From assembly GCA_963281255.1 (NCBI GenBank), contig OY725498.1, forward strand, positions 4,750,452 through 4,814,451: a stretch of 64,000 nucleotides of DNA. Reading direction: 5' to 3'. A program made the translations under genes and the position numbers. The number at the start of each line of letters is the position of its first letter. Positions within the stretch are counted from its first letter, which is position 1. The notes beneath the pieces were generated by a model. It did no database searches. It was not told the origin of the DNA and saw only the letters and a list, made by a program, of their open reading frames with translations. Positions 24,224-46,530 of the stretch are shown here, piece after piece. The stretch is from Aphrocallistes beatrix (Eukaryota; Porifera; Hexactinellida; Sceptrulophora; Aphrocallistidae).

Positions 24224-27200
24224 CTAATTCTCATCCCACAACGGGTCCCTCCTCGCGTTGATGGCGTAGAGCAAGTGATCGCGCATCACTTCCAGGGTGG
24301 AATACTGTGGGAGTTTGATCTGGAAGATGCAGGTCTCTGCGCGGATGAATCGTTCATCTAGGTTGGAGTTCCCTTTAGCATCTGGCGCTGCGATGATCAT
24401 AGGGAATGGAGGGGTGTGTCTTATCTCTTCTCCGCCCTGACTACAGGGACACTCTGATGGAATCCGTTCCAAGTTGCAAGCAAATTTGATGAAGCGGCGG
24501 AGTTCCTCTTGGGAGAAGCTCTTGAGGACTTGCCAGAAGAACTGCATGTGCTTATCTGACTCGAGAAGGCCAACTGAATATTTGGTGTGCTGTTTTAGGA
24601 ACCCGATGTCTATGTGAGGACTACCGCATATCTTGAATTCTAGGCCTTCCGGGGAGAATATGTTGAGGATGTGAATCGGGAGAGTAGAAGCGATTCCACA
24701 CAGAACGGCGCAAGTCTTCTTCTCACAAGAATATTCCTTCAGCTTAGCTTTCCTCATCAGAGACACATACTCTGCCCTCTGAGAGAAGAGGAGGCTTTTC
24801 GGGAGAGAGTCTCCACAACACTCTCTCATCTGTTTCAACAGCTCAGACGCTTTCTTCGGTTTCTCCTTCAATTCAGGATTCTCGTCCGCTTGAGAGGATC
24901 CATCCTCCTCATCCAAAGGCTCGTACAACAGTGCTTCGAATCCTTCTTCCGTCTCGACGTCGATCAGCTGCTGAGTGCTATTGTAGATGATTCTGTCGAC
25001 GTCATACAAGTCCGTGTCGTCCGGTGACTCTGCTAATAACTGCTTCCAGAAGAGAGACATCAAGTCCAGAGGCAGCGGGATGTTGGCGCGCAGGGAGACT
25101 CCAATGAACATTCCTAGATAGATCAGCAGACGCTCTTCTAAGTAGGTCATTGGTGCGGGGTTTAGGATGTACTTGTCTTTGTGGAAGCCAACCCCCGCAC
25201 TGGGACAGGGCATGAAGAGGGGAAGATTTGCAGACTTTATCTCCACAATGATCCTCCAGATGAAGTGTCGGAAGGAGCCAGCGTTGCCGTGCACTCCTGG
25301 CATCCTCACGTCGAAGGCGTACGTGGGCTCTCCCCCTATCTGTCTCAGGTCGACGCAGAGCTGGGGAGAGGGAGTCCTACTCAGCTGCTGGACGCCTTGG
25401 TAGAACTCTGTAGTCCAGGGAGAGGTCTGGGTTCCATCCACGCTGTGGAGTCCGTCTATCTCTATGACAGGCGGGTCTTTACCTGCTCGTCTGGCTGTGC
25501 TCTTGATCAGGTACTCCAGCAGCTTCGTCTGATTGTCGTAGAATATCAGGTGCTTCTTGGCGAGGAGAGCATTACCGAGGTTTAGAGAGTTTGGTGTTGC
25601 GCTCCTGAAGTCTGTGAACGGAATAAGATCTTCAATCAATGCGTTAAGTTTCGAGAGGATGACGTATCTTGCCCTTATGAGGGAGACACGCACACCTTGC
25701 AGAGGCTGAGCATAGTGATGAGAGAGAAGAGCGACGGATGGCCAGATTTCATTGGGCTTCAGGACCGAAGGAGTCAGTGACAAGTTCCTGCAGGTTAAGT
25801 TGACAAAGAACACCAGCGCTCGGTCCATCTGTGGTGTCCAATCGATATAGGCCTCCTCCGTTATGATTTCGCCCAGCAACTCCCCGGAAAGGCTGTAACC
25901 GCAGGAGGCCAGTCCTCTGGCGAGAGAGCGGATATCCTTCCTGGTAGCATCAGTGCAGAGATTTCTGAATGCGGCCAGGTTGATGGTTCCTTCCTTGGTC
26001 ACGTCCCAACGTCGGAATATTCTGTTCAGGTACTCAGCCATTGTAGGTTTCCCTCTCATCGCGTCAAAGAATCGATAAAGCAAGTTATCCAGCCTTTCAT
26101 TGTTGAGGATGTTGTGCTTACTCACCCTCTCTTTCGTTCCTTTCTCGCTGATACAGCTGGAGCGAGATTCTATAGGGATGCCGGACATGAATATCTTGGT
26201 GATGGCTTGTTTTACTTGTGGCTTCACTTCTCTCTTGTCTTCAGAGAACACTCTGGATTTGCAGTACTTTTCAAGAGCCTCATTCAGCTTCTGGTCTTCT
26301 CCCATACTGAATGTGGAAGTGGCCAGAGATACGGAGAGATTGGACTGGAGCTTGTCGTCTTGATCGGAGACGTGTTTAGGAATTTCTCTCAGTAGTTCCT
26401 CCCTCACCTGCGTCGCTTTGGAGGCGTAATTCAGTTCCAGGACAGCTATCCCCAACAGCTCCAGCACCTCTCTCTTTGGGCTAGCAGAGGTGGAGAGAGA
26501 AGAGGAGGGAGAGCTCTGCGAGGAGCAAGGAGGTGTGCTCGCCTCCTGTTTCTTATCTTCAGGCTTAGGCGTGGATTGAGGTGATGGCGGTGGAGAGGGC
26601 TCTACAGGCTGAGCACCCGTCTTTTCTTCAGTCTTTGGCTGAGTTTTCTTTTTGGTATCATCTAATTTGAAGAAATCAAGAGGCATAGGAGGAGGAGGGG
26701 CAGGAATGTTGTCCGATGGCTTGGTTTGAGAAGGCTCTGGTTTGAATATCTTGCGATTTGGCAAGTACAGATCGTCATGGACGAGACCCCCGTGCATCAC
26801 TGCGACCGCTCTTATAGCAGTACTAACTTCATCCGGGTCGAGGTGTGGGTGCAGGCCTGTGATGACGAGCAGCCGTTTGCTGGTGCTGAGGCTGAGAGTA
26901 TCGCGAGAAGATTCAAAAGCTAGCTTGTGTAGTGACTCAGTTTCTCTTTGAGAATACAAATCCCCCAAGAGAGAGAAGTTGGAAGTGAGGGTGCTCAGCC
27001 AGGAGTCTGATACTTTGCTCTTCGCTTTCTCCACCGGCTTCTTCTCGTGGGTAGCCGGTCTCTTCGTCCGCCTTTCCTTCTTTCTCCCGGATGGAACTCC
27101 TCGCTCTCCGGTCTCCTTAGCACTGCTCTCTGTCTTGTGGATGGAGAGAGCTGGATGTTGCTCGGAGAAAGGTGTCATTTTCTGCACTTCCTCGTGTGCC

Positions 27201-30200
27201 ATGATCAGATTCAGAAGAGCCTGGAAGTACGAGGAGAACTTCCCATTCCCACCCCGGCTAACCGAGGAAGGAAGGTGCAGGCTCTTGATCTCTTCCGGAT
27301 TAGCTCCCCCTTTCCCCGGAAAGGATGCAAGTTCCTTCTCAAACAGTTCCACAATCTCCTCTTGTAAGTAGTTGATCTTCCGGAAGGAGTCGAGCAGAGA
27401 GGGAGAGCAGGAGGGGCTGATGCTGACCGCTGTGTGCATAAGGTCGGCTAGCAAGGAGAAAAGCACCTCTCTGAGGAATGGGTGGGAGTTTGTCGAATGG
27501 ATGAACTCTGTTACCCACTCAATGCACTGCTTGAGTAAGGGAATGTAGTCAGTGATTAACAACTCTGTCGGTTTCTCGGTCACTTCTTCAGACTTGAGAG
27601 AAGCATCTCTCTGCTCCGTCACTTCGTCCTCCAGGAATCCCGGCACCTCCCCGCAAGTGAGGGCTTCCAACAGGTCCTGTTGTTCGTCCTTTGTCAGGTG
27701 TTCCGGTCGCCCAGGGAGGCCGGTACGGCTTCTAGGTTTCGTAGACTTGTCTTCCTCGAAGAGACTCTCGTTGTTGTTGCTCCCATCTTTAGGAGGGAGA
27801 GGGGAAAGGGAGGCGTTCTTTTCTTTGAGGAAGTTGGAGAACTCTTGTAAGAAGGCTAGACCCAAGGGGAGGTCAGGGTGTATCCCAAACACTTCCACGT
27901 TAGCACCGGGATCCTCCATACAGGTCATCTGTAGATGGATCCTGTTCTCAGGGAGCAGGAGCACCGGAAACCTGGCACCGCAGTACGGCTGTATGGCGAT
28001 GTCCTTAGTCAGGAGGTTGGGGTACCTCACGATCTCGAAAAAGTTGACTGAATTCTTGGGAGGTTTGTGAGACGAGGGGTGGCCCTTGTACACAAATATC
28101 CTGACCCAGGGTCCCTCTACCGCTGAGATGACCACGCCAGAGGACTCGACTCGGCAGGCACTGGCTGTGGAGGGTTTTGGAGGGGGTTTGGCGGAGGTAC
28201 ACATGCGGCAGGCGTTGTCACCTATTGGGTTGCTGAAGGTGCAAGTCTCACATAACCACTCTGTCTGCTTTTCTTCCTCTTTCTTGATGGTTCCGTTCGA
28301 AACGTGCTTGCAGGAGACGAGGATGCAAGCAGCAGTGGGGATCTCTATGTCCAGGCTCTCTTTAGTAGTCGTGATGGGACAGCTAACGTTAGTGACTGCA
28401 ATGCTGCTCTGTTGAAAGATGGAGCAGATCTCGGTGGCGATAGTCTCGAGGGTATGTGCGTCTCCGGACTCCGCAATGAGGGAAGAGAGTGTGGAGCTGA
28501 TAACGCCAGGACGGTTGTAGAAGAGGGTGGGGATCTTAATGTTCAGGGCGTCGATGCAGTCGGAAGGCTGCAGCGAGGAGAGGCCAGACCATGGAATCTG
28601 AGTGGAGTCGGGGAGTGCCATGGCTAGACTGACGTATGAGAACTGCTTCAGGTGGGAGATGCGGGTGATGAGCAGCTCCTGACTGATGCAGAGGGGCTCG
28701 CGAGGGAGGGAGCAGGAGGGAGGAGCTGGGAGAGGAAGGCTCAGTTCTGTGTGTTTGAGGAGATTGACCAGAGCTCCCTGGCAGTACTTCATGGCCAGTG
28801 AGTTCTCGTACTTAATGAGAGCGCGGTGCATGTACACGTTGATGGACTGAGAGCGGAGGATGGGGATGTTACTCTTGCGGGCGCCTTTGGGTGGTTTCTC
28901 AAGCATATCCAGCGGGTACCAGTAACGCACCAGCACGCCTTCGTTCTCCAGGTACGTCTCCACCTGCACTAGGTTGGTACTCTCCTCCTTGGCTAGGACG
29001 ATTCCGGTGAGACCGAATGTCTTGCTCATCTCCTTCGTGTTGAATTTCAGGTTCCCTCCAGTCTCAGGGGGGGACTTGCGGATAACGAGGATGTTATTCT
29101 TTCGCACACTTTTAATATTCAACTTCTCAGCCTCCACTTTCATGTCTTCCAGGTTGGGGTACTTCAGATTCTGAGGACGCGTGTGCGGTTCGTGCTCGTA
29201 CAGACTCTCAGCTATCATAACAGCGAAATCGCAAAGTCCTTGCTGCAGAGCCCCGACTATGTTCTCTCTGCCTAGTCGTCTCTCGTTGTCGTTCCGGAAC
29301 CTCCTGTCCAGGGCGGGGAAGACGCGATCTTCCCATGTCTTGATGAGAAGTTTGATCAGTTTGTCTCGTTCTGCTTCCGTCTGGACGTCGTCCACGGCTT
29401 CCTTGTCGATATCTTCTCCGAGCCCCACTCTGCCCCCCGGACCTACCCACACCATGTCGTTCAGAGAGCGGCAGAGTTCGTAGTGGTAGAACAGCTTCGT
29501 GTTGTATCCGATGTGTGTGCCCGTGTCTGGGAAGATTGTCTTGACACCTTCTGCCTCCTTCTCGATGGGTTTAGGTTCTTTGGTGTCTTTGCTCTGAGTG
29601 TCGATGGCTGGCGTCGTGTCCTCTGAGTCGGACTCACTGTCGCTGTTGGGAGGGAAGGGCAGGGCAGCGAACAGCCTCGCTATCTCCTCCGCGGAGGCAG
29701 CGGAGGGGAGGTTGAGAGCTGCGTCTCTGTGATGGTGTCCCAAATTGTAGGAGAAGTTTCTGGTTCCAAAGTTAGCCCATACCTTAGTCTTCTTGAGAAA
29801 GCAAAGACAGGGAAACATTCCTTCACACACCCCTCTCACTTCCTGTTCCACTCTCTCTCCATTCACCGTGATGTAGGCTCTCCCCACTGGAGACTTGTTC
29901 TTCTCTCGGATCCATCCCATCCCCACGATGTCCCGCCCCATGATAGGCTTGTTCAGCTTGAAGACGATGTTATTCATCGGGTCGTCCCCTACACAGTGCA
30001 GCACTTCTCCGTTAGAGGAGAGGAGACACGCACCCTGGGGAACTTTCCAGGGATCGTTCTCGTCGGCTTTGGGGAGCTCTTGAGGAGCATAACCGAGGTA
30101 GAAGATCGGTTCCTGCCCCAGGTCCTGAGTGTGATGGAACAGTTCCAGCTCCCAGTAGAAGGAGGGGGTCAGGGGAGGCAGGGGGTCAGTGGAGTAGAGC

Positions 30201-33200
30201 CTCACACCGAACTCTTTCACGTCGTACACAGGGTCAGTGACCACATCCACGCGAGTCATCCCGTTACTCATGATAACGCCGTACACACGAGGGTACGGAC
30301 GCTCTATGTCCCACACGAGGTTCTTCCGCTCGATTGTCTTCTTGATGGTGATAGGAGGTGCGGGGGGACGCGCACAGTCTCGGTACATCATCCTGAGACT
30401 GTTCACCTGTCGCTCTAGAACGTTTTCCCTGTCTGCGGGGTTGCACTGTCTGGCTACTTCGAGGAACTGGTCGAGAGAGGCCGGGTGACGGGTTAGGATT
30501 ATCTTGGCCATCTCGTAGTTGTCGGAGAGTCTAGCCAGCAGAAGGACAGCTCGCGTCCTGATCTCTGTGTACAGGCGACACAGGGCGTACTCCGGTCCGC
30601 TGGCGTCGACGGTTGGAGATACTGAGCCAAGGTCGAGTTGCGGCTGTGAGATGATGAGTAGGAGGGAGCTGATCATCTCCTCGGATAGGTTCAGTTTGTC
30701 CAGTGCGATCATTGGGAGAGAATCAGGGACGAGTCTGGCTTGTGGGATCTCGAACGGTTCTTTGGGGACGCGGTGCTTGCCCGTCTCTATTCCAATGTGT
30801 AAGTTGACGAGAGCCAACGACTGCTGCTCCAGGACTTCCTTCACAGCCCCCGTGTCCTTGGTGCAGTCCGTGTGCAAAACTCGGATCTGAGCGCCCTTGT
30901 GAATGGTCTCTTTGAACCCGCCTAAAATTGCGAGGACAGCCACCAGGGGCTTCCCTTCTGCAAAGTACCTTAGTGGGGCGTGTGGGGGCATCTGGTGGCA
31001 CTCGGTGGCTTTGTGTATGCTGCTGCAGAGAGTGAATATTGGGGCGAGAGTGCTGCTCACTTGGCTGAGGCTGTCCGAGATAACTTCCCGGATGGCTGAT
31101 ACCCAGGCGGCTGCACCGCTGGTGCTGAGGCTGTGGAGCATCGTGATGATCTCAAAGGCCATCGACACGGCGACCTGACCGCTGATGAAGGGGCGGAGAG
31201 GGTCCTTTCTGAGCACCTCGTTCTTGCGCTTACACTCGTCGTAGGACAGCTGTCTCTTCAGATCGAATCCTCCCAGAGAGGACGATTTCCCAGAGGAAGG
31301 CTTGCCTACGCTGACCAGGAACTGCTTGCCGGCCAGTCGCTGAGCGGTCCTGAGCGCTTGAGAGCGAGAGGTGGAGCAGTACTCTGCGCGGGTGTTGTCC
31401 TTGAGAGCTGTCACGAGGTTGAGGAGTCGGGCGGGGTTGAAAGGCAGTCCCGACACGTGACAGTCGAAGTTCTCGGGCTGGAAGATGGGCAGGGGCAGTG
31501 CGTGCTTCGGCTCTTCACCTCTCCTCCGGTGCACGTACACAGTCAGTCTGCTGTCGTCCTCTGCTGCCTCTTCGGGGTTTGTGATGACAATTTCCTCTGA
31601 GACGTTCTCTTCCTGTTCCTCCCCCGCGTAAGAGGTAGTGTCAGGGACTAGAAAGTCTCCTAGCTTCAGCAGGAATAGCTTTATGATGTTGGAAGCATTG
31701 GATTCCGCGGTTTTTCTCACGAGGCTAGCATCTAAACTCTCCAGGTCTGACATACTGTCGTCCACGGCGGAGAAAGAAGAGGCTTGGAAGCTGACAGAGA
31801 GGGAGTAGTCGGGCAGTAAGATGTCGGCGCAGTCCTTCTCTGAGAGCAGCGGGAGCACCACTCGACACAACTGCAAGGTGAGGTAGACCAGACTGGGAGA
31901 GGGTCTGTGGTCCAACAGGAGACGCAGGAGCTTACTCACGAAGGAGGACTGACTAATCAGTTCTTTGCCGAGTTTGCTCTTGGACAGTTTGAGTAGGAGA
32001 GAGAGGAGTGAGTGCAGCATGCTGGTAGCTAGCACCTCGGAGGTAGCCATGAGGTTCATTGTCCTGTCCAGGTGATTCTCCAGCAGGAACGCGATCTGCT
32101 TAGAGAGGGTGAGTAGGGTACCTGAGATCTCAGAGGTCTTCTTCTTATCTTGCTTGTAGATGTACTGCAGAGCTAGGTACTGTAAAGCCCCCCAAGCCAG
32201 ACTGATGGTCTTGTTGATGTTCTTCTCCGAGATTTCCTCAGTCCCGATCTGGTAGTGCTCCTCGGAGAAGCCAGACCCCGCGAAGTTCTGGCTGGACTGG
32301 CAGGAGAGCAAGGAATCGATTACTTTGATCAGTTTGCTCTGAGTCATCACGTCATCGTCGAATAGGTACAGGTCATTGGGAGACGTGATGCAGAGGTAGA
32401 TAGAGTTCTTGGAGTAGGTGAAGGGTTTGGAAATACAGAAGTTGACTGCGTTGAAGAAAGCCTTCTTGAAGCTGACCCTCACCTCGCTGACACAGCCGGA
32501 GCCGTACAGCTCATCGAGCATGGCTCCTTCCCCCAGGCACTTGATTATGAAGGAGAGGGGGAGAGCTCCCCACTTCATGGAGCTGGATAGCTGCAGCAGC
32601 TGCTGAATGTAGCCGATGGCTTTTAAGCGGGACTTTGCTCGTTTCTTGCAGTGCTTGCTAGCCTTCACGATGGCATTGGCAGTCACGTTCTTGCTCAAAC
32701 TGATGCTCAGGTATGAGAAGAAGTGGTCGATGTCCGACTTGCTGCACTTGGGTTTATTTTCTTCAGCTTGTCTCTCTCGGTACAATTCTCCTTGGATCCT
32801 GGGAACGGAGACAGTGCGGAAGTAAGTGGGCGGGGATAGCGAGTCAGAAGTGGACATGGGGTCCTTGGAACGAGACCTGTTGAAGCGATTGCCAAAGCAC
32901 TCTGCGGAGTCTATCTGGAAGAGAAGGTTGAGTTTGTCGAACAGAGTTTCGACCATCAAGTTAAGCTTAGAGAATGGGACTGATGGCTCAGGCAGGGGTT
33001 TGGGAGATAGTTTCGGCTTCTCTGGCTCCATCTCAACTTCTGGCTTGGATGTACTATCTTGTTCGGTTTCAACAGTTAAAGTCGTTTCTTGTGTAAATTC
33101 GCCGACCTCAGATTTGGGAGTAGAGGCTGGATCTCCTTCTTTACCTGCCGCAGTGTCTGGAGTAGACTGAGGTTCTTGCGAAGTAGTTTCTTGTTGAGAA

Positions 33201-36200
33201 GATTGGTCTTGTTCTATAACTTCATTTTCCTCAGGTTTATTACACGATGTATCTTCAGGCTTGACTTTTTCTTCATCTTTTATGGAAGTCTCGTCTTCCT
33301 TTGACTTTACTTCTTCCGTAGCTTTGTTGATATCCGCTTGGCCTCCTGCTTGGATTTCTGAATCTTCTTTCCCTGACTCATCGCTTTCCTTCGGTTTGAC
33401 TTCAGTTTCTTTCTCCTCAACTTTTACATCTTTCCCAGACTTCTCCTTTTCTCTCTCCAGCTCCTCTTCTTCCCACGAGAACTCCCCCTTACGAATTTTG
33501 ACTTCAGTTTTGAGTGACTTTTGCATCTTTCCGACAGCCGCTAGGATATTCTGAGACTCAAGGGAAGGGAGCGAGATATCTAGAATTTGGCAGAGCAGCT
33601 CAAAGTCAGATTGAGAAGCCTCCACTTCGCTTAAGCCAACAAAGAAAGGAGATTCTGCTTCATCTACGAAACCTTCGACATTGTCTTGCACACACATCTC
33701 CCACTGATTCTCGAGATTCCCGATTGCTTGGAGTTTCCGCAGTAGTCCGTACGCTTTGGTGAATATATACGAGAACAGCTCCACTTCTTCCTCGGACCGG
33801 CTCTCCGGATGGAGAATGCTCACGATGGCGAAGTTCAGGTGCTTCTCAATGGCAGACAGAATCATCTCCAGCATCAGCATGGGCTTGATGAGGACGGAGA
33901 GCTTGCGCTGGAAAATGGGGAGCGGTTTGCTTAGAGCCCGCATCAACTTTTGAATGGTCTCTTCAGGGATCTTAGCTGATATTTGAGACATGTGTGCCCG
34001 ATCTACCCATTTGAATTCCTCAACGGTGAGATCGCATTCTTGTAGGAATTTGAGACGCAGAACAGGAGCAGCATCCAATTCTTCTTCGCTCTCGTCTGCT
34101 CCAAAATACACCTCTTCTAGGAAATCAGAAATGACACTGAGACTGCCGAGAAAGTGGTCCATGAACAGAGGAAGGCACGACTCTACGATAGACTCGTGGC
34201 CGTACACATGCACGACGAACCCCCAGACCACCTTGTCAGGAATGTTCCCCTCTCTCCGGCTGCGCTGTTCATACTGAATCATAACGGTGTCCCCTTCCAC
34301 CCGTATGATCTCCTTCGGCCACATCAGTCCGTAGATGGGTCGAGATCCGTACCCGTGCACGTTGCCCCCGTACTCTGCCACTTTCTTCGGATTGTTGCTG
34401 CGGCCGGAGTAGACGGTGAGGATGTCCGAGTCTGCCAGCTGAGTGGAGCAGCGAGGGTCGAACCTTAGAAAGAGATACTTGGCGCCGGGAATTGAAACGG
34501 ATTCTTTGAACTTATAATCGTCTCTGAGCGGGTGTATGGACTCCAGTACCTTCTCCCCGGGCTTGGACAGGTCGGGGATCTTGGGGTCTGCTAGTGTATG
34601 CTTTGGAGAATGGAAGAAATCGTTGAGAGATTTGTACTGTGGGATCTGCTTTCCGTCTTGAGTAGTGTTGATATAAGCATAGTATATGGTGGAGACTTTA
34701 GACGTGATGGTGATGAATTGGATAACTTTGGAGATGATCTCTTCCTTGTTCGTGTTAGCGGTGCTGGACAGGTAGAAGCAGGCAATGGAAGGAATGTAGA
34801 AGGAGAGGAGGGTGCCGAGAATGGTTCCGTGTGTGAGGCGAGTAAGTCCAGTCAGTCGCTCGGGGCCGGGCTGAGAGGGGTGTGTCCGTGTGAAGAGGAC
34901 AGAGAGAACACTGTAGACCTCCTGGTACACCTCCAGTGCGCACTCTAGCACGGAGGAGATTTCGGCTGTGATCTCGCTCACTTGCTTCTTGGGAGTGCTG
35001 GGAAGGTCGATGGTCGTGTTCAGCTCCTCGCTGCCCTGCGGGTTCTCCGCCATCTCTGACATGACGAGAGGGTCGATGATGAGGAGCTTGAGCTGGTAGA
35101 TGAAGTAGCACTGCACGTAGTCGAGGATGGGGCTGATGTGTGGGTGTGTGCTCAGTAGGCGGGAGAACTCGTCGTCTGAGTCAGTGGCGCACCTTTTAAT
35201 GATCTCGATGGACTCGCGCGTAGCGAGCTTGAGAAGTTGGTTAGCGAGCTCTCGCGGGAGCACACAGGCAGTGGTCTGGTCCAGGAGCTGGATGCTCTCC
35301 AAGTCTCGACTGAGCGAGCGTAGCAACTCATCGCACAAGAACTTGGGCGCCGGCATATGGTACAACTCCAAGTAGTTGCTGACCTCAATGGAGACCTCCT
35401 CCTCTCTGTAGAGAACAGAACTGTGATGGAAAAGGATGTACCGCGCTTCTCTGCAGATGGGGTCCACCACCCATCCTAGGTCCTCCCTGTTGGGAGGGGG
35501 ATTGCTCAGGAGAGTGCAGATAGACCTGAGTTTGTCCAGCTCTATCCTACCCTCTTCCGCTTTATCGAAGTTGAGCATGTGAGAGCGCACGAAAGCGCGA
35601 ATGATGTAGAGCATACAGAGCGTGAGAAAGCAGTCTTGCTCCGAAACAACCCAGTCCAGCAGGTGCACACTCTTCTGCATCACCGGCAGCAGCAGCACCA
35701 CGTAGCGGTCCGGGGGTGGTTTGTTGTACAAGTTGTTGCAGGCCAAAAGTCCGGCGTAGTAGAGCATGCTCCTGATCACGTCAGAGGAGGGGATCGGACT
35801 CAGGGCCGTGTCCACCTCATCCCCTTCCTTCTTCTTCGCCTCGTCCTCCTTCGCTCCCCGAGTGGGGATGTGAGAAACTGTTCGCACGCAGGATTCGCAG
35901 CGCAACGCCTGGGGAGGCGGGTCATGCACGACGTCAGGTGCTAAGCCAAAGTGAATGTCAGTCATTCCTCGGCTGAAATTAACCCCGAGCATCCACTGGT
36001 CGGTCCAAGTCTGCGTGCAGGACCAGAGCGAGTTGTTGAAAGGATCATAGCAGGTGGAGAGGCTGGAGGAGATGGAGCGAGCCATGGAGGCGGAGGCTAC
36101 GTAATGGAGATCCCAGATCCCTTTGTACTCTGCGAACTCCCCGCCAAGTCGGTAGCACAGCGCAGTGAGCAGCGTCTTCTTGAAGGCGTGTCCCGACAGG

Positions 36201-39168
36201 AACAGGAAGAGGATGAATGAACCGTTGGAGAAGCAGGCGCAATGGTAGAGTTGGCGGATCGTGATGCCAGAGGTGGAGTGCAGTGACTTGGATGCGTCGT
36301 AAGAGGGGGAGTAGAGACGCTTGAGGAAAGGGCTCAGGCCAGGAGTGGTATAGTGCGGAGAGTCGAAGAACCATGAGGGTGGCTTAGCTACATCTTTAAC
36401 TGACTGGTCTCTGAGGAGAAGGACGTTGCTTATAAGCGATACCAACAAAACGCCGTCTTTTGATACCTACAAGATAATGGACTATCAACCGCTAACTCAG
36501 CAGCAGGAATGTCGCAAGTTACAAGAATTACCTCGAGATCAAATGTCTCTACTCTTGCTTCGAACTCTTCCGACTTCTTGTCTTTCTTGCTGGAGCTGGG
36601 CACCTGAAATACACGATACAAACGTATTCCGTCTCCGATCAGGTGCGAAGTGGTCTCTCTGTGGTGACAGGTGGTGGCGATGGGATGGAAGATTGAGCAG
36701 ACAGGTTTCAAGTTCTCTCTGTCCAAGACGTAGCAAAGGAGTGAAGGTTCTGCAGGTGAAGGAGACCTGAGCTTTTCTTCTTCCATTACGATTTTTTCCA
36801 CTTCAGGTGCCTTTGCGGCTTTAACTTCTCCGCCTTCCGCCGAAGATTTCTCATCCTTTTCCCCTTCTTGAGGCTTGGAATCACTCGGCTCTCCATCTTT
36901 AGGCGTAGAATCTCCTTCTTTGGGTTTAGATTCTTCTTCCTTGGGTTTGGACTCTCCTTCTTTAGGTTTGGACTCTCCTTCTTTAGGTTTGGACTCTTCT
37001 TCTTTAGGTTTGGAGTCTTCTTCTTTAGGTTTGGACTCTTCTTCTTTGGGTTTGGAGTCTCCTTCTTTGGGTTTGGACTCTTCTTCTTTAGGTTTGGACT
37101 CTTCTTCTTTGGGTTTGGAGTCTCCTTCTTTGGGTTTGGACTTTTCTTCTTTAGGTTTGGAGTCTTCTTCTTTGGGTTTGGAGTCTCCTTCTTTGGGTTT
37201 GGACTTTTCTTCCTTAGGTTTGGAGTCTCCTTCTTTGGGTTTGGACTCTCCTTCTTTGGGTTTGGAGTCTCCTTCTTTAGGTTTGGAATCTCCATCTTTG
37301 GGTTTTGACTCTCCTTCTTTAGGTTTGGGCTCTCCTTTAGGTTTGGAGCTCTCGTCTTTGGGTTTGGAGTCTCCTTCTTTGGGTTTGGAGTCTCCTTCTT
37401 TAGGTTTGGAGCCTCCTTCTTTGGGTTTGGAATCTCCTTCTTTAGGTTTGGAGTCTCCTTCTTTGGGTTTGGAGTCTCCTTCTTTAGGTTTGGAGTCTCC
37501 TTCTTTGGGTTTGGAGTCTCTTTCTTTAGGTTTGGGCTCTCCTTCTTTCAGTTCAGGTTCTACCTCTATAAGTATTGGCTCAATTTGATCAAGTGGCTCA
37601 CTGGCGCTCTCTAACTCCCACTCTCCCGCTATATTATCTGCAAAATCTATAACTTCGCCCATTTTTCCAATAATATCGTCGTTGCTAACACTCTTGAGGA
37701 GATCTTCAAACAGAACTCGATCAATGTGTTTATCGCTGTCGAAGAGAACGTCCGATTTCAATTCTTTCGGTACAATTATTATCTCCCTCTTTTTATCCTT
37801 ATTCGAAACTTCCTTTTTATTCTTTGCTTCCTTCGCATCTTCAGGAATAGCAGGTGTGTCTGGGACCTTTTCCTGCTCTATCTCGATATCCTGATCTTTT
37901 TCCTCGATACTCATCGGTCTGAATAGTAGCTGACCGCTGGTGTAGGCAAGCCAGCCAGGTTCGCAGTCAGTGTGTGCGTAGATGAGACCTCGGCACGTGC
38001 CGTGTAAACCTGTCCCGACCTTGATAAGACGTCCGTTCTGCTTGTTGATGTAGAGGTAGTGTCCGTCTGAGGCGCAGCTCGGGTAGACTTCGCTGGCGGC
38101 GGACTCTGTTTCATTCTAGATAAAAACATATCAGAGATAATGTGTGGCTACTTTCGCAACTGAAAGATTGATTACTTGTAAGGATAGGCCTTCAGGAAGG
38201 TTGGTGTCGTCGTATGACCAAGTGACTACGTGAAAAACCGAAAAACTCTGCCATCCGACTTCGTAGCTCTGTCTCAGCTTCTTCATGATTCCAGAAACTT
38301 TCAAGCTGGCTGGCATCCGCTCGCCCAGTCTCTGAATAGTGTGCACTGCGCTTATAATGCTCTTCAGAGTTCCCCGTGCCTGTGCAAGGGCGATGAGACA
38401 GGCGACTATCTGAAGAGTAGATCCAAATAACACTAATAGACAGTAATCGGGAATACGAATAGGCTTGTACCTGCTCTATGGGCTCCTCAGGAGGTGCAGA
38501 CAACTGAGTGAGGTTGGTGAGCCAGCAGGAGAGGAGGCTTTCAAGGTTCGTGATGCTCTCCCTCTTCTCTGTAATCAGCTGCATCGGCTCGAAGTGTCTG
38601 AGAGTATGAAACACGACCAGGGACAGGGACAGAATAAGTTCCACGTCCGCGAGCTGCGTCTCGGAGAGGAATGGTTTGGTAGTCAGCACCATGAACGCCA
38701 GCTTCATTTGGAAGGGAAGTTTGTCGCATTTCTCTATTCCCGGGCACTGTTGCTCGAACGGATCTCCTTTCCTTCTCTCCTACAGCAGAGCAAGTATGAG
38801 AATAACTCTATTATAATAATTTAAGTTGGAGAATGGGGTAATGGCCTACTTACTTTCTGCTTCGATTCCTCCAGCTGTGCCTGCTGTACATACCAGTAGT
38901 AAGCCAGTGCTTTGAATCGGTACTCTGTAAACTGGCAATACGCGTTCTGCTCAGCGAGACAGCGAGGACACAGGCGAAGTTTCTGCATCAGCTGATTGCT
39001 AGAACAGGTGTCGACCAACAAGAGGTCGTCCTCTAGGGAGGAGTTCTGGGAAGCTGAGGTCTCAGATCGCTCAATCGGATCGTTTACCCGGAATAGACCG
39101 TCTCCCAGCAAAATGAGCTGCTCGTTGAGAGCTAGCCACTGCAGGTGTTCGTCCTTTAGGGATGTCAT
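24224..39168 (-). CDS. HECTD4: Giant HECTD4-like HECT ubiquitin ligase
   Basis: I join five exons: 38854-39168, 38471-38779, 38176-38409, 36532-38115 and 24224-36466. The four introns are 74, 61, 60 and 65 bp, all GT-AG and phase 0. The product is 4,894 aa. The last exon has no usable ATG at its left edge, which confirms the splice. Near residues 300-345 is a folded segment (GHYLYINKQNGRLIKVGTG, GWLAYTSGQLLFRP) that I associate with HECTD4. Residues 472-694 are a heptad repeat. A SPRY domain lies at about 2916-3053, and a RanBP2-type zinc finger (WLCETCTF…CRMC) at about 3548-3570. The C-terminal HECT domain (about 4500-4894) keeps the catalytic Cys4860 in RAETCIFQIKLPQY. The human protein is about 4,000 aa. 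HERC-type relatives are the alternative; ligase activity is well supported. Confidence 0.82.
36905..37550 (-). repeat. Coding 21-bp tandem repeat (KPKEGDS heptads)
   Basis: About 31 copies of a 21-bp unit inside exon 4 of the HECT ligase gene. It encodes K-P-K-E-(G/E)-(D/E)-S heptads, with a few variant units (KPKDESS, a six-residue KPKGEP, TPKDGEP). The frame stays open throughout. The product would be a highly charged, extended, Ser-phosphorylatable linker. Because the unit is a multiple of three, an antisense frame also stays open as Leu/Ser/Pro-rich repeats. Confidence 0.93.
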
Positions 39169-41518: not shown

Positions 41519-44500
41519 CTAACAGGTGTAATCATAGTACTGCCTCTGGAGCTCTATGTCCGTGTTGGTGCGCTGGTTCACCAGGTCCATCTTGCCCTGT
41601 GCAGAGAGCAGCTTCCCGAGAGAGATGTTCTTCTTGGCGAGCAGGAGCTTCACTCCCGCGTCTCCGCGCTTTCCCTTCCGCTTCAGCTCCGGCTCCAGCT
41701 CCTTCACCTCCTGGAGGAAGATGTAGTGCTCCTCTTTCTGCTGCGCAGTCTTGGTGGAGCGACGCATCAGGGCCTCAGTCTTCTGAAGATGTTCTAGCGC
41801 CTCTCCGTTCCGCCCCTCTTCCCCAAGCACCGCAGCCATCTGAATCGCCCCCAGCGCGAGCACGGCGATATTCACACTTCCCTCGTCGGCAGACTTGTCA
41901 GAGGTTATTTCCTGGAACTTAGAGATCACTCGTACACACTTCGATCCGTCTTTCAGCTGGTAATGAATTTGCACCTGGAACGGAACCTGGCTGAGTTTGA
42001 GGCTGGCAGCGCTGGCGTCCACTCGATACTTGAGACTGATGTCGCTACTCCTGGTCACGTTTCCTATCGGTTTAACCTGGACGCGAGAGTCCGAGGCTAC
42101 GTCCGTATCGAAGCACAGGCCGCGCGGCAGAAAGAAGGAGACCTGCACGTTAGAGGCGATGGTGGGGTTCTGGCTGATGACGCGGAGCTGTCGCATCAGT
42201 TCCATTGGGTGCAGGATGTTGACTGTCCCGTTGGTCTTGTCCGCGCACTGAGACAAGTATTCCATCGCGCATTCCTGTCCCTCTATCCCTATCACGGAGA
42301 TGCTGCTCTCGCTGATGAGAGCTTCTTGACCGATGTCCTGATAGAACTTGATGTCGCCGCTGCTGCCAGAGTTGAGGGAGCCTACGCCGTTGTTAGGCTC
42401 TCCATCCGTACATATCACAACCTCCGCTCCCGGAAACTTCTTAGATATCCCGATAGAGGTAGCTAATCCGGGCCCCAGGGCGGTCCCGCCCCCTTCCGCC
42501 ATGCCACTAATCACCTTCTTCAGCGCCTCATAGCTCTGCTCAATCGGAAGAAAGCCGGACTTTTCCGCAATCTGCTGGCCGTCAGCCAGGAGGGCCTTCA
42601 TATCGGAAATGTTGGCAGAGGAGGAGATAGGGTTTGAAGACCCGTCTCCGAGCACCCTCACTGAACTGCTGAACACCACCACACACACCCTCTGCTTCGG
42701 AAATTCGATCACCATCCTCTCCAGCTGCCGCAGAATGGCCTGCTTGATGCACTCCAGCCGAGAAATATATTCCTTGAAACTCTCCCCCTCGCGCAGTCTC
42801 TTCCATTCGCTCTGGAGCTGAGGCAGCTGCATGGTCACGCCCATGGAGCCGGAGACGTCAATGCAGTAGATCACCAGCTTGTTACTGTTAGACACGCGGC
42901 TAGCCTCTCCTTCCTCTGCTCGCTCCCCCGCTTGCAGCACGTAGTCCTCTAGCACCACATGAGGGGGCTCGTTTAGCCCGTGTCCAGGTTCCAAGCTGTT
43001 CTCTGTTTCACAGAACTCACACGTCCATACTTCCTCGCCTTCACTGCCTTCAGCTACGGCTGCCCGCGGAGATACGAGAGAGGTGGAACTGAAAGCTGAC
43101 TGGCAGGAAGAGCAGTATCTGGGCTTGCCAGGTCGTGTGTTTTGGTCGTCCAGAGTTCCTAGCTTAATGGCAACCAGATTAACGTCTGCTTTCTTACGTT
43201 TAAGAACTCCTTTCTTCTCCTTCTTCAGCTTCTCTTGCTGTTCCTTGTACGCCTGCGTTGCGGACTTGGGAGCGACAGGCTCGGAGCTCTCCTCTTCCTT
43301 CTCTTCCGACTCCACGAGGTAACTGACCGAGTTACTGTCAGCCGAATAAGCGGCTACGATGTTGAGCGAGACGCAGAACAGGTCAACTAGGTTGGACTTC
43401 TCTTCTCCTGCCTCGAGACCGGAGACGGATTTACAGAAGAGAGTCTTTCCCACTTTCTCAGATCCAAGCACCAGGATCTTACAGCTCTCCTGCTGGCTGA
43501 GGGAAAGGTGAGAGGTTAAGATGCTTTCAATGGGTTGGAGAAAGTTCTTTTTGGCTAAGATAGAAATCTCCACGGGAGCACAGCCAATCTCTGAGGCCAG
43601 GTCTCCTGCCAGAGAGGAGTCTACCTTCCTCTCGGCCCCATCTTCACACTTGTTCCCTACGATCAAGAACTGCTTCTTGCCAGATCTCGTCAGCACCACC
43701 TCCAGCCGAACCAACTCTTGCAGAGCTGTGAAGGTGCTTAGGTCCGTCACGTCATACATCAGGAGAATATTAGGCGCCAGATCCAGCAACTGTGCCAGGG
43801 TGTCCTGGTCCATATCGGCTAGCACCTCCGACTTTGCGTCGTACAGCTCCACTGGACATATCAAGCTCTGCTCGGGATCAACAGCCGGTGAAACCAGGTC
43901 TTCGGAGATTTGCGATTTGCGTTTGAAGAGAGATGAAAGAGAGGAAGAGAAAGACTTCCGGTTTCCAGTAGCCGCACTCGCTCTTGCTTCACCCTTCTTA
44001 TCACTGCTCGAACTTACACCAAACGCACCACGGTTAGCCCGTTTCTCCTTCTTTTGTTGATTGGGAAGTTTGGATCCTATCACGCTGGTCGGGATGTCGA
44101 TCATCTTGCGGTAGGTGTCCTCGATAGTGGGGTCGTAGTCGCACACAAACATGCCCTGCACGTAGCGGATGATGATGGAAGACTTCCCCACACCCCCAGA
44201 TCCAAGGATAGCCATCTTGTATTCATTCCCTGATCGGGGAGTCACTCGCAAGAGCTCCCAAAACGCTTCCTCGATATTGTATGCGGATTTAGCGGAAACT
44301 TCAATATAATGAATGTCCAGCCTCTTGGCCATGTCGGCACCTTCAGCTCTGGTCACTTGTCTATCATTTTCTAAATCTATTTTATTCCCAACGAGCACTG
44401 CTGGCACTTTTGTTGAGTCCTTGACGCGGAGGATGAGTCTGTGTATCTTCTCTGCTTCAAGGAAGGAAGTTCGATCAGTGACGGAGAATATGATAAGGAA

Positions 44501-44749
44501 GCACTTGGCGTAAACCATATACTGCTCCCTCATGGAAGAGAACTCCTCCTGTCCAGCTGTGTCTAGGATGTCCAGCATCACGCTCTCGCCTCCCTGGTTC
44601 CTCCGAGACCTGGAGGGCTGTGGCTGCTGCTGCAACTTTTCATTCTCCTGCTGCAGCCGCTCGGTGATAGTCAGTTTGGCCTCTTCCTCCAATGCATACT
44701 CGAATTCGTCCTCTGTCGCTATGCGCAGCTTGTTACTCGCGAAATTCAT
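41519..44749 (-). CDS. Circularly permuted Ras-like GTPase-VWA protein (cpRAS)
   Basis: A 1,076-aa single-exon protein. GTPase motifs run in permuted order: G3 DTAGQ (63-67), G4 NKID (122-125), G5 SAK (152-154), then G1 GSGGVGKS (183-190) and G2 YDPTIEDTY (206-213). After a Ser/Lys-rich linker a second, degenerate set follows in the same order: G3-like ELYDAKS (301), G4 NKCE (366-369), a G5-like strand, then G1 GSEKVGKT (429-436). Next come a Lys/Glu-rich helix, a four-Cys zinc site (C546, C549, C577, C580) and a VWA domain with MIDAS motifs DVSGS (631-635), a Gly-Gly-Thr loop (755-757) and TDG (781-783). Its C-terminal part resembles Sec23/24-type beta and helical regions. cpRAS proteins are known from Dictyostelium and scattered eukaryotes; their role is unknown. 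ATG at 44749. Confidence 0.9.
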   Translation of the reverse strand: MNFASNKLRIATEDEFEYALEEEAKLTITERLQQENEKLQQQPQPSRSRRNQGGESVMLDILDTAGQEEFSSMREQYMVYAKCFLIIFSVTDRTSFLEAEKIHRLILRVKDSTKVPAVLVGNKIDLENDRQVTRAEGADMAKRLDIHYIEVSAKSAYNIEEAFWELLRVTPRSGNEYKMAILGSGGVGKSSIIIRYVQGMFVCDYDPTIEDTYRKMIDIPTSVIGSKLPNQQKKEKRANRGAFGVSSSSDKKGEARASAATGNRKSFSSSLSSLFKRKSQISEDLVSPAVDPEQSLICPVELYDAKSEVLADMDQDTLAQLLDLAPNILLMYDVTDLSTFTALQELVRLEVVLTRSGKKQFLIVGNKCEDGAERKVDSSLAGDLASEIGCAPVEISILAKKNFLQPIESILTSHLSLSQQESCKILVLGSEKVGKTLFCKSVSGLEAGEEKSNLVDLFCVSLNIVAAYSADSNSVSYLVESEEKEEESSEPVAPKSATQAYKEQQEKLKKEKKGVLKRKKADVNLVAIKLGTLDDQNTRPGKPRYCSSCQSAFSSTSLVSPRAAVAEGSEGEEVWTCEFCETENSLEPGHGLNEPPHVVLEDYVLQAGERAEEGEASRVSNSNKLVIYCIDVSGSMGVTMQLPQLQSEWKRLREGESFKEYISRLECIKQAILRQLERMVIEFPKQRVCVVVFSSSVRVLGDGSSNPISSSANISDMKALLADGQQIAEKSGFLPIEQSYEALKKVISGMAEGGGTALGPGLATSIGISKKFPGAEVVICTDGEPNNGVGSLNSGSSGDIKFYQDIGQEALISESSISVIGIEGQECAMEYLSQCADKTNGTVNILHPMELMRQLRVISQNPTIASNVQVSFFLPRGLCFDTDVASDSRVQVKPIGNVTRSSDISLKYRVDASAASLKLSQVPFQVQIHYQLKDGSKCVRVISKFQEITSDKSADEGSVNIAVLALGAIQMAAVLGEEGRNGEALEHLQKTEALMRRSTKTAQQKEEHYIFLQEVKELEPELKRKGKRGDAGVKLLLAKKNISLGKLLSAQGKMDLVNQRTNTDIELQRQYYDYTC

Positions 44750-45048
44750 TCTCCTTGAACAAGTGCTATATAGAACAAATCAAATTATATAGTATTTACA
44801 AAAAGCTTTATATATACGTATATGTACTACGTACATGAGTCAAGTGACTCAATATAGTATCACAGAACATAATCTGTGTGGTTTGCCACTACGTGCTAAG
44901 CTTATTATAATTGCCATTAACAGTGATTATCGATTATCTGAATTAAGTAATTCGATCGAATAAGGAAGTGATTATAAATTCGGGTATTACGCAGGCTAAA
45001 TATTTAACTGAGAAAAGAGACAAAAAGTGAGAGAGAGAGAAGAGATGG

Positions 45049-46530
45049 TCAGTCGCCCGGGTCGAGATATTGAGGTCGGGACGACAACTCGTTCACGAGG
45101 AACTTCTCGACGCACTCGAACACGGCGTGGGGATCTTGCTCGGCATTCACATGCTCGCACGCATCCTCATACATCTCCGCTAGCTCAGATCTGTAGCTCT
45201 GGAACTCATCGAAACGGCGTTCCACAGTCTCGGGCGCGTCTCTGGGGTGCGTGAGACAGCGACCGCTGGCGGAAGAGCTGGGGGCGGGGTTGTAGAGGGA
45301 GTGGTAGCTCTTGCCAGATACGGGATCGACCTGTCTCAACGTGAGCCGTTCTAGCACCACTTCCCTACTCGCATCCAGGAAGAGAACTCTGTTCGGGATC
45401 ACTCCAGCGGAACTCAGCGACTCGGCCTCTGCTCCGGTATTGGGGAAGGAGTGCAGCACCCAGCCCCGCCTAGCGCAGGCCAAGTTGCTGAGGCTTGCCA
45501 GCAGCGCTTTGATGAGCAGCTCAGTGGGGAGAGGCAAGTTGCGGTTGAGGAATGGCTTCATACTCTCCGCCAGAGAGCCCCCCTTTCTGAGGACTTGCTT
45601 TAGGACCAGGTCGAAGTCAATGTTCACTAGGTTGTACTTCTCTGCCAGCATTTGAGCTTGTGTATTCCTCCCCGCTCCAGGAGGTCCTAGTAGCAACACG
45701 CGAGGCGTGATAGGCGCCAAACTTCTGGAAGTAGGGCGAGATAAGAACTCTTTCACTTCTCCTAGAAGATCTGGAAGGGGTTGATCCACATTGAAACTCT
45801 GCCATACATTGTGTAATGGACGCTCCCTGGAGTTATAACAGTTTTTAAGTTGGTCATAATGTCTATAGAATTGCTCCCATTGCTTATGGAACAAAGCACT
45901 GGCATTAGGAACCTCTCTCAGTCGGGAAGTAACCTCGGGATTGTCAGGCATGTTGAGAGGAAAGTGGTAGATGTCTCCAGTCAACGAGTCAACGCGTTTT
46001 CCCTCGGATCTCCCCTGCAGCACGGATCGACTGCCCTCGAGGAAGATGACGTGCTGAGTCAGGACTCCCTGCGACTGGAGGAGACTAGCTTCCGTGGGTG
46101 TTTCGGGGTATCCGGACATGACCCATCCTTTCTCTAGCAGGTCCTTTCTTCTGAGGCGATTTGAAACGATCTTGCTCGTCAGATGGGGAGCGGGTTCTAA
46201 TCCTTGTTGGACCAATTCTTGTAACTTCAACCCTTCCTCACCACGGTCGTCCACTAAAAGGATATTGGAATCGATGTGCTTGCATTTCAGGTTACGCGCT
46301 AACAGTTTGCTAAGCGTCTTCTTGCCAGAAGAAGGAGGTCCTAAGACCAGGACTCTGGGGGTGTCCTCCACTTTTCTCTTACAAATCTCGATTATTCGCT
46401 GCAATGGATCTTTCGGTTTATCCACACCCAACTCTTGCAAAATATTACCAAAGAATTCAAATAACGCGTGTTTCTCCGCATAGACAGCATACTCCGGCGG
46501 GATGGAGAGAGGTTTTTGTGTGGCATCCAT
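45049..46530 (-). CDS. AK8: Adenylate kinase 8
   Basis: A 493-aa protein with two tandem adenylate-kinase domains and the AK8-specific N-terminal helix (PPEYAVYAEKHALFEFFGNIL); human AK8 is 479 aa. Domain 1 has the P-loop LVLGPPSSGKKTLSK, the GWVMSGYPETPTEA motif and the lid-like RVDSLTGDIYHFP. Domain 2 has LLLGPPGAGRNTQAQ, GWVLHSFPNTGAEA and QVDPVSGKSYH. The P-loop Lys of domain 2 is replaced by Arg, so that site may bind or catalyse poorly; this is read directly from the codon. AK8 is a nucleotide-balancing enzyme of motile cilia. The start is ATG at 46528-46530, directly before the conserved N-terminal helix. Confidence 0.92.
   Translation of the reverse strand: MDATQKPLSIPPEYAVYAEKHALFEFFGNILQELGVDKPKDPLQRIIEICKRKVEDTPRVLVLGPPSSGKKTLSKLLARNLKCKHIDSNILLVDDRGEEGLKLQELVQQGLEPAPHLTSKIVSNRLRRKDLLEKGWVMSGYPETPTEASLLQSQGVLTQHVIFLEGSRSVLQGRSEGKRVDSLTGDIYHFPLNMPDNPEVTSRLREVPNASALFHKQWEQFYRHYDQLKNCYNSRERPLHNVWQSFNVDQPLPDLLGEVKEFLSRPTSRSLAPITPRVLLLGPPGAGRNTQAQMLAEKYNLVNIDFDLVLKQVLRKGGSLAESMKPFLNRNLPLPTELLIKALLASLSNLACARRGWVLHSFPNTGAEAESLSSAGVIPNRVLFLDASREVVLERLTLRQVDPVSGKSYHSLYNPAPSSSASGRCLTHPRDAPETVERRFDEFQSYRSELAEMYEDACEHVNAEQDPHAVFECVEKFLVNELSSRPQYLDPGD

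Follow-up and report, generated by a model that had tools for sequence, protein, structure and literature searches.

Evidence for tandem permuted Ras-family domains in a cpRAS-VWA protein of the sponge Aphrocallistes beatrix

If the motifs of a Ras-family GTPase occur twice along one protein, and each time in an order that departs from that of Ras, the chain can be divided in two ways: into two circularly permuted domains in tandem, or into one domain of ordinary order that is interrupted by an insert and flanked by two half domains. This question is raised by a gene of the hexactinellid sponge Aphrocallistes beatrix, situated in a 64,000-nucleotide stretch of contig OY725498.1 (assembly GCA_963281255.1, positions 4,750,452 to 4,814,451; this whole stretch is hereafter the window, and nucleotide coordinates are those of the window). 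The gene (41519-44749, minus strand) is a single open frame from ATG to stop, contains no internal stops, and encodes a 1076-residue protein of the circularly permuted Ras (cpRAS)-VWA type. The tandem arrangement, with a second domain that lacks a good G3 motif, was proposed in the first-pass annotation of this DNA and is supported by profile searches, an internal repeat and a structure model. We consider it probable that the protein joins three units, namely a permuted Ras switch that is active, a pseudoGTPase that is likewise permuted, and a Sec23-like module made of a zinc ribbon and a VWA domain.

Two sets of Ras motifs

The first 54 residues (44588-44749) are mostly polar and contain no P-loop. 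The G3-G4-G5 half of domain 1 follows (residues 55-173; 44231-44587), with DTAGQE (63-68), NKID (122-125) and VSAK (151-154) intact, and then its G1-G2 half (174-222; 44084-44230), with GSGGVGKS (183-190) and a TIE-type G2 motif, YDPTIED (205-211). Every motif that we looked for is kept within residues 55-220, so that the first set is as complete as it had initially been read to be. Because residues 51-168 correspond to positions 42-158 of the Pfam Ras profile in a search with the whole protein, and segment 171-222 to positions 1-43 (41.1 bits), the order of domain 1 is G3-G4-G5-G1-G2. The nearest solved relatives of the protein in PDB are R-Ras2 and M-Ras, and those R-Ras2 alignments that were displayed come in two pieces whose order is swapped. 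The effector loop, YDPTIEDTY, presumably differs from that of HRAS in S39T alone.

Beyond a polar, Ser/Lys-rich linker (residues 223-293; 43871-44083; composition measured on 222-290), a weaker set of motifs appears to recur in the same order at about residues 294-482, again where the earlier annotation had placed it. In its degenerate G3-G4-G5 half (294-420; 43490-43870), DAKSE (304-308) stands for DTAGQ, NKCE (366-369) for NKxD, with loss of the G4 aspartate, and EISI (394-397) occupies the SAK region; the half containing the P-loop and strand beta-2 (421-482; 43304-43489) carries GSEKVGKT (429-436), which retains the P-loop lysine and threonine and whose glutamate we take to occupy the position of Ras G12. 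On inspection of the motifs, the G2 threonine, DxxGQ and SAK are unrecognisable in domain 2; the order G4-G5-G1 is clear, and the strands matching G3 and G2 are placed by the structure model. Segment 290-419 matches Pfam Ras (PF00071) at 38.5 bits (cut-off 21.6); because this match spans profile positions 72-158 only, the G3 of domain 2 goes unrecognised.

A bare P-loop pattern is weak evidence for a second domain, since 978 of 20,000 shuffles contain one somewhere in residues 223-1076. The P-loop of domain 2, in addition, lies at most 2 residues from the position predicted from domain 1, and local alignment of domain 1 (46-222) with domain 2 (290-480) pairs residues 75-219 with 319-464 at a score of 104, which none of 1,000 shuffles reached (mean 30.1, maximum 55). 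This internal repeat runs across the G5-G1 junction, with a gap of just 2 residues there and 1 residue at the P-loop.

Profiles in ordinary and in permuted order, both built from 71 Ras-family domains, divide the protein differently. The permuted-order profile reads two domains, residues 55-216 (150.1 bits) and 326-442 (49.1 bits; total 201.7), whereas with the ordinary-order profile the match falls apart into four fragments (109.0, 29.0, 28.9 and 6.7 bits; total 177.1). On domain 2 alone (289-484) the permuted profile scores 53.9 bits, with shuffles at 6.2 or below among the 827 of 1,000 that hmmsearch reported. Finally, residues 286-484 by themselves are modelled as a G domain with its strands in permuted order (predicted local distance difference test, pLDDT, 87.8, from alignment rows that were chosen and trimmed: 23 G3-G5 and 23 G1-G2 halves taken from Ras-like proteins of ordinary order, and domain 1). 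The best structural matches of this model include permuted GTPases of the YRG family, whose role is in ribosome assembly.

The C-terminal half and a possible mode of action

A charged linker (residues 483-541; 43127-43303; composition measured on 480-542) leads to a zinc-ribbon-like site (542-590; 42980-43126) with CxxC pairs at 546-549 and 577-580 (C546, C549, C577 and C580), and this to a VWA domain (residues about 623-860; 42170-42883). The metal ion-dependent adhesion site (MIDAS) of the latter is intact, comprising DVSGS (631-635), T756 within GGGTALG (753-759) and D782 within TDGEPN (781-786); four cysteines followed by a MIDAS-type VWA domain, as first described, are indeed present. Pfam VWA_2 scores 27.7 bits from the C-terminal fragment (cut-off 27) and 25.1, below cut-off, from the whole protein, and the only PDB match of the C-terminal half is a VWA domain of the chloride-channel type (E 0.017). 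A Pfam match to TPR_Sec16 was taken as chance.

The zinc site and the start of the VWA domain resemble Sec23, a component of vesicle coats, in sequence. Aligned with the Sec23 frame of the same genome, the protein reaches a local score of 83, equalled by none of 500 shuffles, over the zinc finger, the linker after it and the first VWA strand, and hhalign with single sequences returns a probability of 61% (E 8.1e-5, 77 columns). The likeness to a Sec24 fragment, with a score of 42 in the zinc region that 4 of 500 shuffles reached, is weaker. Residues about 865-952 (41894-42157) may form a Sec23-type beta-sandwich, to judge from a weak match to Sec23_BS; this match and the one to the Sec23 zinc finger, both below cut-off, are collinear. 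The tail (residues about 955-1076; 41522-41887) ends in YYDYTC, and there is no CAAX box at the C-terminus.

What the analysis shows is the motif order, the internal repeat and the fold predicted for domain 2 by itself; the activity of one GTPase domain and the pseudoGTPase behaviour of the other, their coupling, the binding of partners and any cellular role are inferred from these. With its catalytic Q67 and effector loop kept, domain 1 would be able both to bind GTP and to hydrolyse it, and effectors of the Ras type may be among its partners. Since domain 2 has lost the G4 aspartate and any recognisable G2, G3 or G5 motif, it is probably a pseudoGTPase; lacking a recognisable DxxGQ, G2 threonine and SAK, and having NKCE for NKxD, it should not cycle. 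Degraded G motifs and a predicted G-domain fold are both present in domain 2, which would most likely serve as a fixed partner, linking the C-terminal module to the nucleotide state of domain 1; the MIDAS of that module would bind cargo or a partner.

Origin of domain 2 and alternative readings

Several results weigh against a protein built in this way. No Pfam family matches the G1 half of domain 2 (residues 417-480) above cut-off, and a single-sequence AlphaFold2 prediction of residues 1-520 was unusable (pLDDT 36.2). Because the rows behind the model of domain 2 were chosen, it means that residues 294-482 can form the fold, and it leaves room for their pairing with 171-222. Similarity profiles of the half domains, compared by Spearman correlation (A and C being the G3-G5 halves, and B and D the G1-G2 halves, of domains 1 and 2 respectively), gave A-B 0.71, C-B 0.53 and C-D 0.31 within the genome (n = 20; true pairs 0.58, standard deviation 0.16; mismatched pairs 0.15, standard deviation 0.55), and A-B 0.30, C-B 0.33 and C-D -0.30 over all domains (n = 72; true pairs 0.55, standard deviation 0.23; mismatched pairs 0.42, standard deviation 0.26); this comparison does not tell the two divisions of the chain apart, nor does it support the view that the two halves of domain 2 share an ancestor. 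In the C-terminal fragment, zf-Sec23_Sec24 (E 0.094) and Sec23_BS (E 0.024; 15.7 bits, cut-off 33.5) stay below cut-off, Sec23_trunk is absent from the Pfam matches, and no Sec23 or Sec24 chain in PDB matches the C-terminal half at E up to 10. A genome search with domain 2 (E up to 1) found 31 places including itself; the best other was domain 1 (27.9 bits), followed at 26.8 bits by a Ras gene of ordinary order on contig C7, which leaves a margin of 1.1 bits.

That margin and the repeat alignment point to what we regard as the most likely, though weakly supported, origin of domain 2, by duplication of an already permuted domain. The same anatomy might instead have arisen from a separate Ras-family domain, or domain 2 might be the remnant of an ordinary tandem like that of EhRabX3, which is a possible but less likely course; being a statement about origin, it overlaps with the explanation preferred here, and the odds of the two need not sum to one. 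In its favour are the narrow margin by which domain 1 exceeds other Ras genes and the PDB search with domain 2 (residues 290-480), whose top match extends across the G5-G1 junction in EhRabX3, a tandem Rab (E 1.2e-11; next Rab3A, E 1.1e-6; from the best 60 of 240 sequences at E up to 10). On the other side stand the small gaps in the repeat and the fact that, among 20 domains of this genome, the four most similar to the second G3-G5 half (L108, L092, L102 and L115, whose subfamilies were not classified) are also the four most similar to the G1-G2 half of domain 1. A bolder version of the duplication, that an early doubling of permuted Ras as a unit created an intramolecular GTPase-pseudoGTPase pair driving a Sec23-like module, and that the linkers of other CPRas proteins in some species represent this second domain in an eroded or unnoticed form, we offer tentatively and with considerable doubt.

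The division into one ordinary Ras domain (171-222 with 294-420), carrying an insert of about 70 residues in the beta2-beta3 loop and flanked by two half domains, appears improbable. Its chain order, G1-G2-linker-G3'-G4'-G5', is the ordinary one and might be left over from a permutation that proceeded by tandem duplication; each of its two pieces scores about 32 bits with the ordinary-order profile; and the profile of 171-222 correlates with that of the second G3-G5 half at 0.33, compared with 0.30 for the permuted pair (n = 72). However, the best-conserved half of the protein, 55-173 (109.0 bits with the ordinary profile), would then be left with no P-loop, and the strongly Ras-like halves both fall in domain 1 while the degenerate halves both fall in domain 2. 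A P-loop from an upstream exon had been considered for domain 1, but no GxxxxGK[ST] was found when 44750-45048 was read by eye in all three frames of the minus strand (exons further away were not searched for), and the next open reading frame (ORF) beyond it on this strand (45049-46530) ends in a stop of its own and is an adenylate-kinase match. Residues 171-420 give no single hit with either profile, two pieces being returned by each, a split due in part to the long linker, which any profile penalises. An ordinary fold of residues 180-410 is disfavoured because both copies have tight G5-G1 junctions (2 residues apart), because polar linkers sit at the permutation boundaries, and because 286-484 alone models as a G domain with permuted strands. 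Moreover, a permuted domain can occur singly, as in DdiCPRas2 (residues 2844-3013, according to the available text of PMC2430557).

That domain 2 is a decayed linker that has no function and retains a Ras-like look is more improbable still: most of its G motifs are degraded, but its P-loop and open frame are kept, and, with the chosen alignment rows, its sequence models confidently as a complete fold.

Genomic setting and known relatives

A whole-protein search of the genome (E up to 0.001), in which 43 of the 123 first-look candidates were scored, returned 44 matches, of which one is the gene itself and the other 43 fall within query residues 48-227. To the extent of that search the gene is single-copy, with no second copy and no other match in domain 2 or the C-terminal half. 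Among viral contigs, the whole-protein search gave 11 pattern-matching stretches and no relatives, and a Ras-alignment search gave two loci from 95 stretches; Foldseek against viral models (E up to 0.001) gave four matches, three named Ras GTPases and one uncharacterised protein. As a separate matter, Ras-like GTPases occur on contigs L058-L068, which were binned as bacterial (Oscillospiraceae, Eubacteriales and others) and could be real or eukaryotic contamination.

The adenylate-kinase gene directly upstream (45049-46530) contains two ADK stretches and is one that we take to resemble AK8; other neighbours match Asparaginase_2, PIG-F and MBOAT, and we saw no functional theme shared among the neighbouring genes. 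Elsewhere in the window, an ORF at 36430-37914 contains KPKEGDS-type repeats, nearly identical to one another, in a long array, and at its 3' end it runs into the beginning of a 4074-residue ORF without a stop (24224-36448; same strand, different frame), whose C-terminus looks by eye, no search having been made, like a HECT ubiquitin ligase. Because of this overlap on one strand, the two may be one gene. The genome also yielded six Ets-domain matches and no Wnt, in a Wnt search that detected none in any control genome either; Ets without Wnt would fit an early animal lineage lacking Wnt if that search were sensitive enough.

The cpRAS-VWA family, CPRas1 of Dictyostelium and its relatives, was described by Elias & Novotny 2008 (PMC2430557), at which time two kinds of circularly permuted GTPase domain were known. 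According to the available passages of that paper, these proteins have about 840-970 residues, an N-terminal region of 40-66 residues and, after the permuted domain, a poorly conserved putative linker; the Sec23/Sec24 trunk name is already used there for the VWA domain, a possible zinc finger is mentioned, and the role of the family is left open. The sponge protein shares the G3-G4-G5-G1-G2 Ras-family domain with its TIE-type G2, the four cysteines before a VWA or Sec23-trunk-like domain in the C-terminal half, and the N-terminal length (54 residues); it differs in its 1076 residues and in the degenerate second permuted domain between domain 1 and the zinc site. Relative to those passages, then, domain 1, the cysteines and the VWA domain are already known, and the second permuted domain, located within the published linker region, is new. 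We found no report of such a domain in this family in the literature on permuted Ras and on tandem or pseudo GTPases (the supplement of PMC2430557 not being covered), and no mention of it in the accessible portions of PMC8296547, PMC5125639, PMC11764893, PMC5593906, PMC8514894, PMC3505798, PMC5560681 and PMC4082629; nor did we find literature combining Sec23, VWA and Ras.

Other systems share single features. DdiCPRas2 has a permuted Ras-family domain, but a single one, between COG2373/macroglobulin-like blocks (passages of PMC2430557). EhRabX3 (PDB 5c1s/5c1t) has tandem G domains in one chain, one of them without several G motifs (passages of PMC5593906), but, judged from the matched stretches, in ordinary motif order, and it is a Rab rather than a Ras. 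The pseudoGTPase domains of p190RhoGAP are likewise GTPase-like domains in a region thought unstructured, although in another protein, and the passages of PMC5593906 on them mention no permutation. The YRG family (YlqF/RbgA, YqeH and Nog2) shares a circularly permuted G domain, but in the order G4-G5-G1-G2-G3 (passages of PMC2430557). Sec23, in the copy from this genome (L016), is similar in the zinc ribbon, the next linker and the first VWA strand, and has FCIDLCLEES where the cpRAS-VWA protein has the intact MIDAS motif DVSGS. If our reading is true, a permuted active GTPase and a permuted pseudoGTPase side by side would be a new arrangement, would exemplify the duplication and decay of such domains, and would provide a concrete hypothesis for the role of cpRAS-VWA proteins, that of a Ras switch controlling a Sec23-like module.
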